From a virus: a stretch of DNA of 64,000 nucleotides. Below, in pieces: positions 1,204 through 18,033 of this stretch; the stretch's first letter is position 1, and each line of letters starts with the position of its first letter. Made by a program: the position numbers and the translations under genes. The notes beneath the pieces were generated by a model. It was not told the DNA's origin. It worked only from the letters and a program-made list of their open reading frames with translations, and searched no databases. Location: the IMG/VR virus record IMGVR_UViG_3300023210_000021, positions 1 through 64,000 of that record; one strand, given 5' to 3'.

Positions 1204-1687
1204 TTTCTATAATTTCTTCTTCCGTTTCGACTTTGTTATTAGTCGGTGGTAGTTCTATCCCCTTATGTAGTTGTGGGATATCATTTTCAATAGATTCTAT
1301 TGATGATAAATCACTCAACTTCGGTTCTTCTATATCTTCAATTTTAAATTTGAGTCTTTCTAACTCACTCAATGGTTTAGACGTAAACCACATTTTCAAT
1401 TCTTCAATCTTAGCCCTTAATAGAACTAATTTGTGTTCCTTTTCAATATTACCATTTATAATACCCTCCACATGATCCAAAATCATATCAAAATCATTTG
1501 ACTCACCATTTACAGGGTGGAACATATAATAGTTTTCATTATTCTGACTTGCTTTATATGTAATATCGTCTGACTGGTATACATCCCAACCATCCTTTAA
1601 CACTACATCAACTACACCCATATTCTTAACAAACCTAATGCCTGTTACATATGGTCGTAAGTCATTTAACCTCTCTTGTATCATCAT
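1190..1687 (-). CDS. unknown acidic-tailed phage protein
   Basis: This 165-residue protein has a beta-rich N-terminal half (VVDVVLKDGWDVYQSDD region), a central helical stretch with charged heptads (about residues 85-125) and an acidic C-terminus ending EEEIIETEEA. No catalytic motif or membrane segment is visible. I do not recognise the family with confidence; the length and compact layout suggest a small soluble phage protein. It ends inside a terminator hairpin, so it closes the transcription unit running from the histone-like gene. Either M1 or M2 could be the start. Confidence 0.7.
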   Translation of the reverse strand: MMIQERLNDLRPYVTGIRFVKNMGVVDVVLKDGWDVYQSDDITYKASQNNENYYMFHPVNGESNDFDMILDHVEGIINGNIEKEHKLVLLRAKIEELKMWFTSKPLSELERLKFKIEDIEEPKLSDLSSIESIENDIPQLHKGIELPPTNNKVETEEEIIETEEA

Positions 1688-1700
1688 AAAACATTTTTAT

Positions 1701-1901
1701 TTATAATATGGTTAACCCATTAAAAATGGACATTAAGATAAAAGCAATAGATATACCCAAAAATAGTAAAGATTTATTATCTAAAACAAATCTCTCTTTA
1801 TTGTATACACTACGAGAAAGAAAGAATATGTTTCGAACCACAGTCAAACCACTCATAAAGAATATGAATATTAATATTTTATTAACTATATCTATTGCCA
1901 T
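1701..1901 (-). CDS. small two-helix membrane protein
   Basis: A 66-residue protein with two predicted membrane helices, roughly residues 6-27 (ILIFIFFMSGLTVV) and 44-64 (SLLFLGISIAFILMSIF), joined by a basic loop containing RSVYNKERF. It lies in the same direction as its neighbours between two minus-strand genes. A + strand open frame covers the same bases but is less plausible given strand and context. Small membrane proteins like this can be holins or superinfection factors, but nothing in the sequence decides this. Confidence 0.6.
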   Translation of the reverse strand: MAIDIVNKILIFIFFMSGLTVVRNIFFLSRSVYNKERFVLDNKSLLFLGISIAFILMSIFNGLTIL

Positions 1902-1911
1902 CTTATTTTAA

Positions 1912-2097
1912 TTAGGATACTGCTTCTGTTTTTTTCATTTCAGAAACGTTAATTCTAATTTCTTGTGATAAATTCTTAATCTCCTGTAACCCTTTTCTTA
2001 ATCTTGTTCCAGCGGCTTTATTACCTTTATCATAAAACTTCTCTGCTTCCGCCTCAATTTCTGCGACTTTTGCTTTTAACTCTTCAAATTTTTCCAT
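1912..2097 (-). CDS. histone H1-like (Hc1 family) DNA-binding protein
   Basis: The 61-residue product matches the short Bacteroidota histone H1/Hc1-like family. It has the conserved FYDKGNKAAGTRLRKGLQE core (about residues 21-39) followed by a helix with paired basic residues, and the length is typical of that family. Family members bind DNA non-specifically. In a phage such a protein could coat or compact phage DNA, or alter host nucleoid structure or transcription (inference). The gene sits in a run of small minus-strand genes. The close match to a host chromosomal protein is good evidence for a Bacteroidota host and for acquisition from one. Confidence 0.88.
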   Translation of the reverse strand: MEKFEELKAKVAEIEAEAEKFYDKGNKAAGTRLRKGLQEIKNLSQEIRINVSEMKKTEAVS

Positions 2098-2111
2098 TTT
2101 AAAAAAATTAT

Positions 2112-2351
2112 TTATTTATTATTATTTTCCTCATTTAGAGGAGTGCTTAAAACGTCTTCTGGAATCATTCCAGAAAAAGCTTCAATATTGTTATTTGCTT
2201 TTGTTAAATCATCTATTAAAACTATCGCCATGTCTGATTTTTCATCAGTAGATATGTCTTCTCTTTTTAAGAGTAATCTCATATCTAATTCAACCATCTC
2301 TCTTTGGTTAAGTAGTTTTGTTAAAACAATTTCTATAAACTCCTTAGTCAT
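2112..2351 (-). CDS. small helical protein of unknown function
   Basis: A 79-residue, mostly helical, acidic protein with no Cys, no membrane segment and no recognisable motif. It is separated from the downstream histone-like gene by 14 bases and points the same way, so the two are probably cotranscribed. An overlapping + strand frame (2143-2364) is judged a shadow. Confidence 0.6.
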   Translation of the reverse strand: MTKEFIEIVLTKLLNQREMVELDMRLLLKREDISTDEKSDMAIVLIDDLTKANNNIEAFSGMIPEDVLSTPLNEENNNK

Positions 2352-2395
2352 ACACCAACTATAAAACCTTTTTTCTTTAAAATAAATAGTTTAAA

Positions 2396-2872
2396 CTACG
2401 TTTTTAACTTATAATTAAGACTTTTCTCAAATAATTTATATAATACTATAAGTAAATCCATATCTGACCTAGTTTTAATTCTATGGAAATCAAAAGATAA
2501 ATTAGATAACATATTTAATTTTGCCATTATATCTTCTTTATCATCAACAAGATAAAATAATTCATTATAAAAGTTAAAAAAATATAATTTTAACCCATCT
2601 GTATCTTCAAAAATAATATTTTCTGATTTAAAATCAACCACTACCTTATTAAAACACCACAAATAATGTCTTTTCTGATCCTCTTCTGTGATTACTACAT
2701 CATCACCTAAGTAAGTGTCAATTACCAATAAGTTAAGCGTCTTTATAAAATCATAATAAAGTTCACACTTATCATACCTAACATTATTTGCTTTATACAA
2801 TAATGTCATCTCTTCTTTTGTGAGTGGTGTTCCGATATAGCTTAAAAATTCTATCGTGTTCATTTTATCCAT
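2396..2872 (-). CDS. unknown protein, helical
   Basis: A 158-residue protein rich in aromatic residues (YYDFIKTLNLL, YLWCFNKVVVDF, YFFNFYNELFYL) and probably all-helical. No family was recognised and no catalytic pattern is visible. A reversed-complement TATA-like box (ATATTTATTG on the sense strand) ends one base before the ATG, as for several other genes here. A second in-frame ATG four codons in is an alternative start. Confidence 0.65.
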   Translation of the reverse strand: MDKMNTIEFLSYIGTPLTKEEMTLLYKANNVRYDKCELYYDFIKTLNLLVIDTYLGDDVVITEEDQKRHYLWCFNKVVVDFKSENIIFEDTDGLKLYFFNFYNELFYLVDDKEDIMAKLNMLSNLSFDFHRIKTRSDMDLLIVLYKLFEKSLNYKLKT

Positions 2873-2873
2873 A

Positions 2874-2883
2874 CAATAAATAT
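2874..2883 (-). promoter_or_regulatory. ATATTTATtG upstream box
   Basis: Sense-strand ATATTTATTG ends 1 base before the ATG of the gene at 2396-2872. It is a variant of the recurrent ATATTTATAA box. Confidence 0.35.
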
Positions 2884-2902
2884 ATGGTGGAAAAACTAAC
2901 TA

Positions 2903-3784
2903 TTAAAGGCTTAATAACATATCGATCAATTCCTCTTGTGGGAATAAATCTGTTTTGTCTTTTCTAGTTGATGTATGAGTCCACATCCCTTTTACTTTAC
3001 CATAATAAGCATTTTCATTAAATTCAAATCCATCAGCCCCGTTCTTTCTAATCTCTTCAACTAACCCTTTACGAACATCGATAGAGTCTCTTTCTGCTAT
3101 AAACAAAATCCATAATCTAAGTGCTTCGATTTGATTATCAGAATATCTATGCCATGTTTTATGACCCCTGAATGGTTTTGATAGTGTTACTATTTGTGAT
3201 TCATGTGCTGTTGTCCCAGCATATGTTTTACCATTAACAATATACCCAAAGTTACATACCTCAATACCTACTGAATTTGTGTGCATATATTGTGAACCAT
3301 TTTTACCTAAATGCCAACCATATCCACCATCGGGAAATGCTTGAACCATCGTACCGTCCCAGTTAGTGTCGTAACCTTCAACTGAAGGTCCACCCATTAC
3401 AAATTCGGTTGCTACAGCTCCTCTATCATCTCTACCCCATGAATCTATACAATTAAGTGGTTTGTGCCACCCTGCTGTGTGATGTAAGAATACATACTCT
3501 TTAGATGTTGGTCCCACTTTATATTCACCACTTGGTAAAAAGTGTTTTTGAATTACTAATCCGTTTGGTGTTGTGTAAAATTGTTCTGTGTTATCTGTTG
3601 TTGCTAATCCCATAGCGTCCCATGTTTTAGATCCGACTATACCATCATCATCAAGACCATTATCAAATTGCCATGTTTTAACCGACCTTTCTGTACCTGA
3701 ACCGAAAATTCCATCGGCAGATATATTTAAAAACTCTTGAAGTTCTTTAACTTCTTTTCCCTTAGAACCTTTTTTTAATACCAT
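2903..3784 (-). CDS. endolysin: peptidoglycan-binding domain plus zinc amidase (Amidase_2/PGRP type)
   Basis: A 293-residue protein with an N-terminal PG_binding_1 domain (residues 4-58, with GSKGKEVKELQEFL and a second VGSKTW repeat) and a C-terminal N-acetylmuramoyl-L-alanine amidase domain (about 92-285). Visible zinc ligands follow the AmpD pattern: H101 in FLHHTAGW, H270 in WTHTST and D279 in RKDKTDLFP. VGIEVCNFG matches the conserved core strand. It should cleave the amide between muramic acid and the stem peptide, probably at lysis. There is no signal peptide, so export would need a holin or it acts from the virion. It starts on the stop of the upstream gene (TAATG). Confidence 0.9.
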   Translation of the reverse strand: MVLKKGSKGKEVKELQEFLNISADGIFGSGTERSVKTWQFDNGLDDDGIVGSKTWDAMGLATTDNTEQFYTTPNGLVIQKHFLPSGEYKVGPTSKEYVFLHHTAGWHKPLNCIDSWGRDDRGAVATEFVMGGPSVEGYDTNWDGTMVQAFPDGGYGWHLGKNGSQYMHTNSVGIEVCNFGYIVNGKTYAGTTAHESQIVTLSKPFRGHKTWHRYSDNQIEALRLWILFIAERDSIDVRKGLVEEIRKNGADGFEFNENAYYGKVKGMWTHTSTRKDKTDLFPQEELIDMLLSL

Positions 3785-4638
3785 TACTTAATTGTTTTTC
3801 TTTTTATTTTATAACCTTCGAACATATACCCACCATGTTCTACAAAATCTTTGTATTTGTTTAGTATTGGAACACTTTTACCACATATTCTTTTTATTAC
3901 CATAAGCCATCTTTCACAATACCCTTTTATTTCTGTGTCACTATAATTTAAAGGTGGTTTTAGATAAGCACTTTTTATATACCCACTATCTAATACGTCA
4001 CTATATTGTCTACCTTCATTAGCAACTAACCAATCCCCAAAAGAGTCCTCATTAAAGCTTAAAAAATCATACCCATAACCCTTTATTGTGTCAGGTAATA
4101 AATTAAAAAATATTGATCCTTGAAAGCTCGTTTCTTCTGTGACATATGTTTCATCACTATTAGGTACTGTTCCTTCATACTCACCAACAACTCTCATTGT
4201 AACCCAAACATCTGGATTCATATCTTCTTCGATCATAGTTTCAATATCCTCAGATATATTAAGCTCCCCACTAATACCATCAAATTCAAAAACGGTTTTA
4301 TTTTCATAATTCTTTTCTAAATACATCAACAAAATTTCTTTAGTTAACTTTGCTAAGTCTGGTGACATAACATCATACCCAGTAACTTTCTCTATACCTT
4401 CTTCACTAAATAAAAATTCCTTATATTTTTCATAAGTCATATAAAGAGTTGTCATCTCGTGCATGTCTACTCCAGCTTTTTTTGCTAAACTAAAAAGAAA
4501 ATCATTCACATTACCTGACCCTTCTTTGTAATCTTCAGTGTTTAATTGTTTATGTATCATTTTTAATATACCCTTATCAAACTTATTCATTTGTAAGTTG
4601 TCTATCATTGCCTCTGTTATAATCCCCTTAAACTTCAT
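3784..4638 (-). CDS. unknown protein next to the muralytic genes
   Basis: A 284-residue acidic protein of unknown family. It starts MKFKGIITEAM, where IITE followed by A fits the (I/L)-x-E motif seen on several neighbours, but the segment is too short to call a targeting peptide firmly. The N-terminal third is helical and the middle is beta-rich (VWVTMRVVGEYEGTVP). It overlaps the M15 peptidase gene by 11 bases and ends on the start codon of the endolysin gene, so the three are almost certainly translated from one message. Confidence 0.65.
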   Translation of the reverse strand: MKFKGIITEAMIDNLQMNKFDKGILKMIHKQLNTEDYKEGSGNVNDFLFSLAKKAGVDMHEMTTLYMTYEKYKEFLFSEEGIEKVTGYDVMSPDLAKLTKEILLMYLEKNYENKTVFEFDGISGELNISEDIETMIEEDMNPDVWVTMRVVGEYEGTVPNSDETYVTEETSFQGSIFFNLLPDTIKGYGYDFLSFNEDSFGDWLVANEGRQYSDVLDSGYIKSAYLKPPLNYSDTEIKGYCERWLMVIKRICGKSVPILNKYKDFVEHGGYMFEGYKIKRKTIK

Positions 4639-12959: not shown

Positions 12960-15323
12960 CTATTTTAACATTAATGTTGATATATTATCCTTTTTAACAA
13001 CAGTGATAATTTTGTCTGCCCAATCCTGAGCTAAAGGGTTGTGTGTGATGAATAAAATAATATCATACATCGTTTTAATCTTATCAAAGAATGTTTTTAC
13101 ATAGTCTAGATTAACATCTGCCACCTTCCCTAACACCTCATCAAAGACAATAACATTTGGTTTTGGTAATGTTGATATCCTACCTAACACACACCTCAAC
13201 GCTAATGAAGCAATTGTCAATTCTAATCCTGACCCACTTTTTAATTTCTTTGCCACCCCACTCTTTAAAATTAAAAATTCTACTTCATTCTTATCGTTCA
13301 TACTCAACTCTACTTCAAAATCACAAACATCGTCTAATAACCTTTGTAATTCGTAGTTGATAACTGGTATAACTGACGTTAATACTAACTTAGAAATCCC
13401 ATTCTTACCTATCATCTTGTGGTAAATTTCAAATATTTTTAAAACCTCAGTTTCTTTATTAATAGTTTTAATTAGAGATTCATTCTCTACTATCTTTTCG
13501 TTTGCGGTTTTTATTAGATTACCACCACTTGTGATAAAGTTTTTAAACTCATCTCTTTCCAAATTAAGGTTAGTAAGTAATTGATTGTAACCTAAAACCT
13601 TACTATCTATACCTCTATTAGTTTCAATCCCTTTAAGGTTTCTTTTAAAATCTTTTAGTGTATTTTTCTTTTCTTTAATATCAACACGTAACCTATCCAT
13701 CTCAACCTCTAAACGATCTTTTATTAACCCTAATTTATCCTTATCATCAGACTTTTGTTTCGTCTCTACAAAGGTAGATACTTTTTTTATAATAGATTCT
13801 ATTTTTTCTTGTTCTTTTTCTAAATCTTTCTCTTTTTCGAAAACTTTTGTTTCAGTATTCTCTATTTGCTCAGTATGATCAACATCTTTAAGGTCTTGTT
13901 TACATAAACTACAAGTTTCACCATCCCTCATCTCTTTGATAAGTTTTTTATAGTCTTTAATATCTTTATTTAACCCACCGATAGATACTTTTAAATCCGT
14001 TTGATCATCGAGTATAGTATTGTAGTCATCTTCATCAAAATCAACCTCACCAATATCTTCAATTTTAGTTAATGTTTTTTCTAAACTTTCTTTTTTATTA
14101 ATACCATCTGTTAACAAATCTTCAATCTCACTTTGTAAGGTTTGTGGGTTAACATCCTCTATCTCATCTTCAATATCAATCTTCTGAGATAACAACTTTT
14201 CCTTTTTAGAATTGGCTATTTTAATCTCGGATTCTTTTAATGTTAATTCTTTTTTATAATTAACAACTAACCTATCACTTTCGATGATTTTTTCATTACA
14301 TTCCTCAATATCACCAGCAAGATCTTTTAAGTTATAAATGTTAGACTTCATCTTTGATTTAAAGTCAGCCATCATCTTCTTATTAATCTCTTCTTTCTTT
14401 TCTATTGGATCTAACCCAATGAATTTAGTAAGTAACCTACCCCTTTGTGTAGGCTTAGTTTCAACTAAATCTTCTAAATTTTTAGCGGTTGCAACAATAG
14501 TTGTCATAAAATCATCATATGAACCAATAGTTTCAGTTATGATGTTCTCAGTTTCTCTTCTTTGTTCACCCTCTAAATTTTCTTTATTACCATCAGCAAG
14601 TATCCTATAGAAATCTAAACCAGATGATACTACCCAACCACCCTTCTTTTTAGTTTTACGACTAATCGTTCTTTCGATTATATAATCACCACCATCAAGT
14701 GATATTAATCCCCCCACCTTAACTTCATTCTTATCTGTATATGTGTTAAAGTTTTCTATTGCAGTGTCCGTTTTAGTTGTCTTACCAAAGAAAAGGAATA
14801 AAAGTGCGTCAATACTAAATATAGTTTTACCACCTTGATTAGCTGGTTCCGATTGAACTAAGTTAAACCCTTTAAGTTTAGTATAATCCAAATCATTACC
14901 ACTACCATAAGCAAGAAAATTATCAATCCACAACTTTTTTAATTCCCATCTTCTATAACGGTAATCTTGTTCTTCTCCACCATCAAGTAATATCTCCTCA
15001 ATTTGATCGTCTAATTTACAAATACGGTTAAAGTCTACTTTTATACCATTACGTTTCAACCACTCAGAGAATAGCTTTCTTTGGTATTCTTTATTCATTA
15101 TGTTTTCAATCAAACCATCACTAATATCAATAATCTTACCTTCCTTATTCTTAATAATCGGAATGAAGTTTATTTTAATCGATGTCGGAGCAACACTATA
15201 CTTCTTTGAGAAGTATGACTTAACTCTATTAATAGATTCTATTGTTCTATTTTCAGGGTAATCTTCCCAATCAACCCTTATCTGTGCTTTTTCTGGTATT
15301 TCCACCTTTGTCAATGTTGCCAT
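12960..15323 (-). CDS. 46: gp46-like recombination ATPase (SbcC/Rad50 family)
   Basis: A 787-residue SMC-like ATPase, longer than T4 gp46 (560) because of an N-terminal extension of about 130 residues before the ATPase head. A Walker A-like motif (QGGKTIFSIDALLFLFFG) lies near residue 165. Two coiled-coil arms flank a zinc-hook CSLC near residue 469. The signature SGSGLELTIASLALR and Walker B NVIVFDEVLG are in the C-terminal head. With gp47 it should form the nuclease complex that resects DNA ends for UvsX-dependent recombination and replication. The Walker A core (PANQGGKT) departs from GxNGxGKS but keeps GKT. It lies two bases after the stop of the gene at 15325-16020 and downstream of the split gp47. 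Confidence 0.92.
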   Translation of the reverse strand: MATLTKVEIPEKAQIRVDWEDYPENRTIESINRVKSYFSKKYSVAPTSIKINFIPIIKNKEGKIIDISDGLIENIMNKEYQRKLFSEWLKRNGIKVDFNRICKLDDQIEEILLDGGEEQDYRYRRWELKKLWIDNFLAYGSGNDLDYTKLKGFNLVQSEPANQGGKTIFSIDALLFLFFGKTTKTDTAIENFNTYTDKNEVKVGGLISLDGGDYIIERTISRKTKKKGGWVVSSGLDFYRILADGNKENLEGEQRRETENIITETIGSYDDFMTTIVATAKNLEDLVETKPTQRGRLLTKFIGLDPIEKKEEINKKMMADFKSKMKSNIYNLKDLAGDIEECNEKIIESDRLVVNYKKELTLKESEIKIANSKKEKLLSQKIDIEDEIEDVNPQTLQSEIEDLLTDGINKKESLEKTLTKIEDIGEVDFDEDDYNTILDDQTDLKVSIGGLNKDIKDYKKLIKEMRDGETCSLCKQDLKDVDHTEQIENTETKVFEKEKDLEKEQEKIESIIKKVSTFVETKQKSDDKDKLGLIKDRLEVEMDRLRVDIKEKKNTLKDFKRNLKGIETNRGIDSKVLGYNQLLTNLNLERDEFKNFITSGGNLIKTANEKIVENESLIKTINKETEVLKIFEIYHKMIGKNGISKLVLTSVIPVINYELQRLLDDVCDFEVELSMNDKNEVEFLILKSGVAKKLKSGSGLELTIASLALRCVLGRISTLPKPNVIVFDEVLGKVADVNLDYVKTFFDKIKTMYDIILFITHNPLAQDWADKIITVVKKDNISTLMLK

Positions 15324-15324
15324 A

Positions 15325-16020
15325 TTATTTTTTTCTACTTATATTAGAGCCGCCGCCCCACAGACCACGACTTTCATCATCGTAGATATCGTTATTATCA
15401 TCTGAACCACCATTAAGATGGTTAAGAATACCATTCAATCTTTTAATTTCTTCTTTGGTTTTGTCGTGAGATTCTACCTCTTCTTCCCAAAAACCTTTAT
15501 ACTTTTCGTCTACAACTACGTCTACCTTTTCGTCTAATTCTTGTTTAAGCCCGTCTAACTCCTCACACATTTCATCATGTGTATTATGTAAAGTCTCAAT
15601 TATACCCTCTAACCTCTCTTTTTCATCATCATACCCCTTTATTGTATTGTTTAATGTTTCTTCAAGAATAGTTATTTCATCAGTCAGTTGGGTGACTTGT
15701 TCATCATCGGTAATATAAACTTTCTTCTCTACTGATACTTCCTTAATAACCTCGACTGGTACTTCTTTAATTACTTCCACTACTACTTCTACCCTCTTCT
15801 CAACAATTTTTTCAACAGGAACTTCCTTTATAATTTCCTTAATTACCTCTTTTTCGATAATTTCAGGTTCTGGTGTTTCACTACCAAATGGGGAGTTGCC
15901 ATATTTTTCAATATTGAACCCGTTACCCACCATTTTATTGGTGAATTCATCTATATTTGGAATCTCATTTAATCTACAATAATCCCATATTTCATCTTGT
16001 AACTTCTTAGGTATATCCAT
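15325..16020 (-). CDS. coiled-coil protein with VPVE-type repeats
   Basis: A 231-residue protein. Residues about 50-95 are a low-complexity repeat of Glu/Lys/Val units (EVPVEKIVEKRVEVVVEV, EVPVEVIKEV). A long coiled coil follows (about 105-210). The C-terminus ends GLWGGGSNISRKK. Such repeats are seen in many phage and bacterial proteins and carry no specific function. Its position between the gp47 C-terminal half and gp46, with a shared TAATG junction and a 2-base gap, suggests it works with or is coregulated with the gp46/47 complex. Confidence 0.7.
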   Translation of the reverse strand: MDIPKKLQDEIWDYCRLNEIPNIDEFTNKMVGNGFNIEKYGNSPFGSETPEPEIIEKEVIKEIIKEVPVEKIVEKRVEVVVEVIKEVPVEVIKEVSVEKKVYITDDEQVTQLTDEITILEETLNNTIKGYDDEKERLEGIIETLHNTHDEMCEELDGLKQELDEKVDVVVDEKYKGFWEEEVESHDKTKEEIKRLNGILNHLNGGSDDNNDIYDDESRGLWGGGSNISRKK

Positions 16021-16247
16021 TATAGATTCATTAATTTCTCTGATTCACTTTCTAAATCATCTAATGATTTGATTTTAAATACAAAATATCCGTAATCAAT
16101 TTCTAAGTTATGTTCGGTATAGGTTCTATCTTCCACATCCCATATAAGATACCCATGTTCATATAACTTCTCACCAAAGTCTTGTTGTATTAAGCTCGAA
16201 CTAAAAACTGCTGGTATTGTTTTTTTAATTTTTATTTTTTTCCCCAT
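16020..16247 (-). CDS. 47: C-terminal half of split gp47 (Mre11/SbcD family)
   Basis: A 75-residue product beginning MGKKIKIKKTIPAVFSSSLI. FSSSLIQQDFGEKLYEHGYL followed by IWDVE matches the segment that directly follows the last metal motif in Mre11/SbcD-like phage nucleases (typically SGSLIQQNFGE, then HGYLLWD). The N-terminal half is the separate gene at 16333-17019, and 85 bases with an in-frame TAA lie between them. The two products together would give about 300 residues, near T4 gp47 (339). This half may be made from its own ATG and assemble with the first, or the gene may be broken. Confidence 0.75.
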   Translation of the reverse strand: MGKKIKIKKTIPAVFSSSLIQQDFGEKLYEHGYLIWDVEDRTYTEHNLEIDYGYFVFKIKSLDDLESESEKLMNL

Positions 16248-16332
16248 ATTCTTTTATTGTATTAAATAATTTATATTTAAAGTTTTTCTTCTTTATATCA
16301 TCACCCCAAAATCTAACAACCGTAAAAGTAGT
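16248..16332 (-). pseudogene. insert between gp47 halves with Vsr-like endonuclease tail remnant
   Basis: Reading straight on from the TAA that ends the gp47 N-terminal half gives an open stretch containing TVVRFWGDDIKKKNFKYK, then NTIKEYG. The VxRFWxxDIKKN pattern is typical of the C-terminal strand and helix of Vsr-like/DUF559-type endonucleases, a fold used by some phage homing endonucleases. There is no start codon or catalytic core, so at most this is a remnant. The gp47 residues just upstream of the stop (DEEELERYEKMGW) also look foreign to gp47. Confidence 0.5.
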
Positions 16333-17019
16333 TTAATCATCAATTACCCAACCCATTTTTTCATACCTTTCTAACTCTTCTTCATCAATACTTTTAGTTT
16401 CTATATGGTTAAAATGATTCCTCAAATGAATATCACCCATTAAAACCATATCGCACCCATCAAATTGTTCTAAATCATTATGATCCTCAAACTCATACCC
16501 AATGGCAGTAATAGCACCATTAACAGGTGCGTGATATAACCCAACATAGGATTTATCATCACCATATTCTTTACGTGCACTTTCAATGTCAGGACGTTCA
16601 TTCTCCTCAAAAATAGAATAGACACACCAAACCACATTATCATCTTCATAACCCTTACTTTCTGTAAGGTATTTGACATTATCATTATTAATGGCATCAA
16701 TTATAGGTGAAATGCTATCCATCCTATCCTTATTGTTCTCCAATAAATCATGATTACCAGCAATAACAACCACAGGACAATGTTTCGAACATTCATTTAA
16801 GAACCAAGCAACTAACGAAAACAATTCATTAGATATGGTAATCTTCTGATGAACAATATCACCGGCAATTACAATTCTACATTCATCATGTTTTAATTTA
16901 TTTTTCTTTATAAATTCTTTTATTTCAGATACAAATTGTTCACACCCTTCTCTTGATTCTGCTAACCTTTTATACGTTCTAAAGTGTAAGTCAGCTATAT
17001 GGAAAAAATATTTTATCAT
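16333..17019 (-). CDS. 47: N-terminal half of split gp47 (Mre11/SbcD-like nuclease)
   Basis: A 228-residue calcineurin-like phosphoesterase with all expected metal motifs: ADLHF (residues 8-12), AGDIVHQ, AGNHD, YHAPVNG and MGDIHLRNH. It should be the nuclease partner of gp46. It stops about 30 residues after the GDIH motif, where homologues continue directly into SGSLIQQ; that segment is encoded separately at 16020-16247. The final 25 or so residues (after HLRNHF) do not look like gp47. The metal site seems complete, so the truncated product could still be active if it pairs with the C-terminal half. Confidence 0.85.
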   Translation of the reverse strand: MIKYFFHIADLHFRTYKRLAESREGCEQFVSEIKEFIKKNKLKHDECRIVIAGDIVHQKITISNELFSLVAWFLNECSKHCPVVVIAGNHDLLENNKDRMDSISPIIDAINNDNVKYLTESKGYEDDNVVWCVYSIFEENERPDIESARKEYGDDKSYVGLYHAPVNGAITAIGYEFEDHNDLEQFDGCDMVLMGDIHLRNHFNHIETKSIDEEELERYEKMGWVIDD

Positions 17020-17121: not shown

Positions 17122-18033
17122 CTAAGCAAACATTGCTTGGTTATCTAATTTAAATTGAAACATGTCGTCTACTAAATTTCCGTAGTCTTCACATTTTATG
17201 ATATCATAATTAGGATTCTCCTCGTTGAACCATACTAGGAATGAATCACCTAAACGTAAGTTAGTGTTTCGTTCAATAATCTTCTTATATACATTAAGTT
17301 GGATTGAGTAAGTTGTAAACTCACAAGCGTCTAACATATAAAGGATATGTAACATTTTACCACCAAATTTGTTCACCATATTAAGTTTGGTATTTGTTTT
17401 CCAATCCCATATCTGTAAACATTGTTCCTTAACATTCCAAAATAATTGATCCACCATACCAGTTAAATTTAGTTCTCTATCACCAACAACTAACTCTGAA
17501 CGAACAGGTATTAATTTACCACTAGCAACTGCGGTGTTATAGAAATTATGAAATTGTTTTTCCATAATTTTATATGTTTTAACAATCTCATCAAAAGAGA
17601 TACCCTCTGGGCTAACATCTGGATACGGAAAAACCCTATTAGTCATATAATTCTCAATATAATCATGAAGTGTGTTACCCTCAAAAGTTGCGTGATGGTT
17701 TAAGTATAACCATTCTTTCTGTATATCTGATTCTGTTACCCATTCACTCTCTGGTTTTGGTTTACCATAATCTGGTCTCCCGTAAGGGTCACCCTCCATC
17801 GGATAAAAATTCTTTTTATGTGCTGATTTGTCTGCCATACTTTTTGGTACAAATACGTGACCTTGTTTACGTGCCCACCTATCTTCCTTATGTATATTGG
17901 ATTCGAAACCCTCTTCAAATTTGTGAATAAACCCCGTACAAGATATTGTTGGGTTTTCATCCATATAATACTTATGGGGTTCATCGTGATAAACTATGTT
18001 GTTAAATTTTGATAATTCTAGTATTGTATCCAT
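17122..18033 (-). CDS. PD-(D/E)XK nuclease, RecB/Cas4-like exonuclease fold
   Basis: A 303-residue protein. LTGMVDQLF, then LQIWDWKTNT, gives the GxxD ... (D/E)xK core of RecB-type PD-(D/E)XK nucleases. It is followed by a helix with YSIQLNVYKKIIE, which matches the usual Q-x3-Y motif. An upstream helix HDYIENYM supplies the early part of the fold. The N-terminal 100 residues are a less conserved domain. It is probably a DNA exonuclease in recombination or host DNA breakdown, consistent with its place upstream of gp47/gp46. A host-type promoter (TTG-N19-TATCTTTG) overlaps the divergent + strand gene start. Confidence 0.82.
   Translation of the reverse strand: MDTILELSKFNNIVYHDEPHKYYMDENPTISCTGFIHKFEEGFESNIHKEDRWARKQGHVFVPKSMADKSAHKKNFYPMEGDPYGRPDYGKPKPESEWVTESDIQKEWLYLNHHATFEGNTLHDYIENYMTNRVFPYPDVSPEGISFDEIVKTYKIMEKQFHNFYNTAVASGKLIPVRSELVVGDRELNLTGMVDQLFWNVKEQCLQIWDWKTNTKLNMVNKFGGKMLHILYMLDACEFTTYSIQLNVYKKIIERNTNLRLGDSFLVWFNEENPNYDIIKCEDYGNLVDDMFQFKLDNQAMFA

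Follow-up and report, generated by a model that had tools for sequence, protein, structure and literature searches.

A phage gp47 gene in two pieces, probably split by a homing endonuclease that has since been largely deleted

Homing endonucleases (HEs) of phages occur together with devices such as the T4 gene 60 bypass, group I introns and fractured genes. Friedrich 2007 reportedly described nrdA of Aeromonas phage Aeh1 as split by mobE, and Dassa 2009 is said to have described fractured genes with split inteins and a Vsr-like HE family, to which I-Bth0305I, the fold match of the HEs treated here, presumably belongs. According to PMC2988022 and PMC3653736, Aeh1 nrdA is split by mobE and its enzyme is known to work. 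T4 gene 60/mobA and gene 43 of Aeromonas phages 25 and 44RR are also split, with or without an HE, and still working (PMC2988022), and in gene 43 of phage 25 the split possibly came before the HE (PMC2988022). A 2023 survey (PMC10448857) counts 'at least one instance' in which a functional gene was split by an HE.

Here we analyze a 64,000-nt stretch of viral DNA (the window) in which gp47, the SbcD-like partner of gp46, lies in two pieces; both names were assigned by homology. The split gp47 agrees with HE-made 'genes in pieces' in those features that sequence analysis can test, and it would work like them. As in Aeh1 nrdA, a free-standing HE sits in coding sequence without intron or intein, the two chains carry extra ends, and the HE frame overlaps the downstream piece (our reading of AY266303). 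However, mobE is an HNH enzyme with one target gene in one phage group, whereas gp47 is entered by Vsr-like and TnsA-like HEs across numerous lineages, some of which lost the HE or apparently re-fused the gene. We rejected the Aeh1 NrdA ends as sequence kin of the gp47 ends, given that the layout is alike but the sequence is not. The fractured genes share a Vsr-like HE between gene halves, but the gp47 break shows no split intein and its halves are very probably not spliced. T4 gene 60/mobA and Aeromonas gene 43 share a replication gene that is split, with or without an HE, and functional; gp47 differs in having no bypass signals, and PMC2988022 describes neither recurrence at one codon nor homing footprints for those genes.

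A split gp47/SbcD, its recurrence and its decay series were not found in the literature searched, which left subscription papers mostly outside. New relative to the known class are the target gene, its repeated invasion at a single codon by two types of HE, homing footprints and graded decay. One recombination-gene site is split repeatedly in distant phages, with an empty site, HE, scar, tidy split and re-fusion as stages, and the way in which a mobile element comes to be tolerated inside an important gene becomes a directly testable question. Because gp46/gp47 may take part in homing (PMC2988022), the HE target is a gene whose product may itself act in the process.

The split gene and its scar

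On the minus strand of the window, gp47 consists of two ORFs in differing frames, with 85 nt (16248-16332) between the stop of the first and the ATG of the second (Table 1). The N-piece (228 aa) contains DLHF, GDI, GNHD, H and GDIH, the motifs of a metallophosphoesterase, and ends in GDIHLRNHFNHIETKSIDEEELERYEKMGWVIDD before its stop. The C-piece (75 aa) begins with MGKKIKIKKTIPAVFSSSLIQQDFGEKLYEHGYL and supplies the remainder of gp47, including SSSLIQQDFGEKLYEHGYLIWDV; its start region outscores 99% of the ATGs on the same strand. The modeled fold of a fused relative, L004, matches SbcD 7DOG and Mre11. At the DNA level, a search against known phages gave no match, and a Pfam search gave none for the C-piece alone or the relic alone. 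A first-pass annotation had recognized a gp47 in two pieces with the motifs from DLHF to GDIH in the first, which the two ORFs bear out. It had set the non-gp47 gap at about 190 bases, more than twice the real stop-to-ATG distance, and had counted as foreign the ~70 nt before the stop, which in every split relative encode the gp47 N-tail and not an endonuclease.

Table 1 Features of the gp47 locus in the window
Feature	Position	Strand	Basis or remark
gp47 N-piece, SbcD/Mre11-like nuclease	16333..17019, stop included	-	Pfam Metallophos 9e-11; PHROG 100 SbcD-like 4.9e-18
N-tail (IETKSIDEEELERYEKMGWVIDD)	16336..16404	-	In all split relatives and fused L004; contiguous sisters without it
Presumed remnant of the leader ahead of the HE gene, 16 nt	16317..16332	-	Single-deletion alignment; short, 8-10/16 identical to relatives
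ORF with HE relic (TTFTVVRFWGDDIKKKNFKYKLFNTIKEYGEKNKN, then stop)	16225..16332	-	HE-derived from ~16316 down; 23-nt overlap with C-piece start
gp47 C-piece	16020..16247, stop included	-	Own ATG; start-region score
C-head MGKKIKIKKT	16218..16247	-	Common to split relatives
gp46 (SbcC-like partner), intact	12960..15323	-	PHROG 77, 1.1e-45

Two neighbors complete the locus. A 231-aa coiled-coil protein with KEVPVE-like repeats and no clear family lies between gp47 and gp46 (15325-16020, minus strand), and just upstream of gp47 the stretch 17122-18033 (minus strand) has a weak PD-(D/E)XK nuclease match (E=6e-4).

Positions 16237-16332 (minus strand) match positions 265-296/297 of the HE profile (E=5.6e-8), the sole such match in the 83.8-kb record. 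The profile match identifies the relic as the last 35 codons, the C-terminal end, of an HE with a Zn-finger and a Vsr/I-Bth0305I-like domain. When a single deletion is modeled against L001, L032 and L171, the alignment scores 39-43, compared with at most 5 for the best of 300 shuffles. The right side of the scar is identical at 52/69 nt (L001) to 56/69 nt (L171), and the leader half is a short, weak match. The insert between the gp47 pieces is therefore a decayed Vsr-like HE gene, and a single deletion that joined the leader to the VRFW codons would explain the scar. The Vsr-like endonuclease tail noted earlier after the TAA is real, and the suggestion of a decayed insertion in the first-pass annotation is supported.

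The window is a metagenome contig, so an assembly or sequencing artefact has to be weighed, but the same architecture, with graded scars, occurs in many independent contigs and we regard an artefact as extremely improbable. Because the frames differ, a single wrong stop codon is not the cause, and the previously considered read error at the TAA could not by itself have joined the pieces into one frame.

Devices that accompany phage HEs could restore a single gp47 chain by intron splicing, ribosomal bypass or a split intein. For splicing, an Rfam search gave zero intron matches, a group I catalytic core was not found and the gap is too short for one: 85 nt here, ~4 nt in L009 and an overlap in L259 and others, and where an HE is present the gap contains only ~60 nt besides it. 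For bypass, the C frame has a TAA just upstream of its start, a matching take-off/landing codon was not seen and several split relatives overlap stop and start. For a split intein, the break has no intein motif, with neither a Cys/Ser block A after GDIH nor an HN before the C-extein on inspection by eye. Restoration of one chain is very improbable on these grounds, and splicing and bypass, both raised in the first-pass annotation, lack support.

The reading we strongly favor is that a once contiguous gp47 was invaded, at the beta-hairpin turn after GDIH, by a free-standing HE with a Zn-finger N-terminus and a catalytic domain of the Vsr/I-Bth0305I-like kind. The flanks of the HE would have supplied the new C-terminal tail of the N-piece and the start codon and head of the C-piece, with the last HE codons overlapping the C-piece start. 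A single deletion running from the leader to just before VRFW would then have removed ~90% of the HE. The final ~69 nt of the HE ahead of the C-piece ATG, where C-piece translation starts, would have been spared. The two gp47 chains would reassemble and act with the intact gp46.

Endonucleases and scars in relatives

A scan of viral contigs gave at least 55 relatives. Nearly all the data come from metagenome assemblies; the counts are of distinct sequences among the matches listed and are not natural frequencies. Most are contiguous at this place (GDIHKRQSFNHKGIPIAYPSSLIQQ) and a minority have the two pieces of the window. Every split gp47 carries an extra ~25-aa N-tail (..E.EL.rY...GWv.D before the stop) and an extra ~9-aa C-head (MGKKIKIKK..); the comparison with intact relatives called for earlier shows both to be missing from contiguous sisters. 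Of at least 15 viral contigs in which a frame starts with MGKKIKIK, L403 and L405 look like chance occurrences and all others are gp47 C-pieces by contig name or inspection, hence we rejected the idea of tail and head as a cassette used across many different genes.

In L001, L006, L032, L071, L078 and L088 an intact HE of ~300 aa, without intron or intein, lies between the same two gp47 pieces, and its last codons overlap or adjoin the C-piece start; the window retains the relic only. The HE ORF combines CxxC pairs of the Zn-binding kind with a domain containing LIEADGDYWH ... RFWE, in which LIExDGxYWH and RFW are conserved. The full-length model matches I-Bth0305I (3R3P, prob 1.00, TMt 0.70) and Vsr (1CW0, prob 1.00), at Foldseek E-values of only ~0.004-0.01 and with E=0.3 for the sequence profile alone. 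The Vsr-type fold and motifs are those of full-length relatives, of which the window relic covers the C-terminal end. PHROGs label relatives of the ORF as HNH/homing endonucleases. A second, TnsA-like HE type occupies the same site in L013, L083 and L192, so two unrelated HE types use it.

In T4, a hairpin can hide the ribosome site of an HE gene. Ahead of the HE start, only L013 and L192 have hairpins clearly more stable than those of shuffled sequences (z -2.46); L032 does so weakly, the remaining relatives tested do not, and the window scar has no hairpin. L078 has a 2.3-kb gap in its split gp47 (1631-3902) that contains, in addition to the HE, a DNA-methylase-like frame and one further gene, and in L062 and L064 a TnsA-like endonuclease frame (1102-1353) lies directly upstream of the split gp47.

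Other relatives show graded loss of the HE. Its front is missing in L171 and L080. In a marine series, L071 has the whole HE, L068 has an internal deletion with ~50 codons left, L070 and L073 have shorter scars, and L066, L074 and L076 retain almost nothing of it. The split persists without an HE in L009 (gap ~4 nt), L062 and L076, and in a clade of nine phages (99% support), most of which have 4-nt ATGA/GTGA/TTGA overlaps of the kind typical of translational coupling. The pieces of L259 also overlap. Fused genes that retain the tail, L004 and less surely L295, are apparent re-fusions (n=2). Early scars retain the HE 3' end, which carries the C-piece start, and we infer that this end is kept because it starts C-piece translation.

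Recurrence and homing footprints

Trees were built from two sets of distinct gp47 cores with tail and head excluded. The first (116 cores) needs a minimum of 12 changes in the tail/split state, and its supported branches require the contiguous label to change 9 times or more; in the second (95 cores), there are 15 state changes and at least 11 forced ones. Split genes stand beside contiguous ones, the window with L169/L242/L330, L006 with L046, L013 with L047 and L192 with L197. The same gp47 site has been invaded, and the HE then lost, many times in other phages. Among these neighbors, L330 (QCKH01000004.1), whose contiguous gp47 is among the nearest to that of the window, is an 83,794-b contig from a Prochlorococcus single-cell assembly; it is perhaps a phage inside a Prochlorococcus cell and a hint of the host.

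L006, L013 and L192 are ~92-95% identical to their contiguous sisters, dropping to 62-85% over the last ~120 nt before GDIH. For L006 and L046 the identity is ~95%, then 72-85% in the ~120 nt before GDIH, then 93-96% past the break; L013/L047 and L192/L197 follow the same pattern. The divergent stretch of L006 and L013 most resembles that of other split genes. The marine phages L068, L070 and L071 share an island of 97-100% identity around the break. It is mostly 93-100% over the ~120 nt that precede the stop and the first ~30-60 nt past the ATG, and identity outside it is 60-80%; their silent differences are 0.8-0.9 in the core vs 0.06-0.22 in tail and head. The islands and footprints look like marks of double-strand-break repair that copied in the HE with its flanks, and islands and co-conversion tracts fit homing, that is, cleavage of an HE-free allele followed by self-copying.

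The footprints also bear on whether the split, or a long hairpin, predates any HE, with HEs settling in the gap later. The HE-free split clade with its tidy overlaps and the gp47-specific tail and head are in line with such an order. However, sisters of split genes are contiguous and have neither tail nor head almost everywhere, and in L006, L013 and L192 split, tail and HE arrive together. We consider the prior split unlikely and an HE-made split the better account.

Two chains and their pairing

Among marine phages with a split gp47, the N core has a pN of ~0.1-0.2 and the C-piece, which is longer there than in the window, one of 0.11-0.37, with pS near saturation. Because both pieces are under purifying selection in split relatives, a functional two-chain gp47 is very probable. 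The split in the window itself is old enough for dS to be saturated, and its later selection and function are therefore read from the relatives. The split functional enzyme that the first-pass annotation listed among its options is, by the same selection, very probably correct, and we infer that the enzyme is active. A pseudogene, killed by the insertion and now decaying, would agree with the decayed HE relic, and the saturated dS is compatible with recent loss of constraint. However, both frames are open (228 and 75 codons) with all motifs kept, the C-piece start region is in the top 1%, gp46 is intact, both pieces have a pN well under pS in split relatives, and neatly overlapping pieces are maintained throughout a clade, which together render a pseudogene improbable.

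The break is not at an active-site codon, as had been supposed, but ~25-30 residues past GDIH, where a beta-hairpin lengthened by the insertion makes its turn. In the L004 model (pLDDT ~80), a strand (200-211), a helix (212-220) and two strands (224-227 and 233-244) follow one another; tail and head extend the hairpin that follows GDIH, and the break site is the loop between the last two strands, at the far end. Hence the halves can probably pair, and tail (strand-helix-strand) and head (strand) may zip them together, a docking view drawn from one moderate-confidence model of a fused relative. We give about an even chance to a broader proposal, in which N-tail and C-head would be a travelling docking device, spread with the HE by co-conversion, that neutralizes the insertion without intron or intein. 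The split would then outlive the HE, since a gene without the target site would stay immune to renewed invasion.

Further rearrangements of gp47 were seen in relatives. In L078, L080, L082 and L088 the gp47 C-part and gp46 (SbcC) form a single long fusion protein, and the HE-free split gp47 of L062 and L064 (1354-2982) has an apparent intein right after GNHD (CF...ISGNC).
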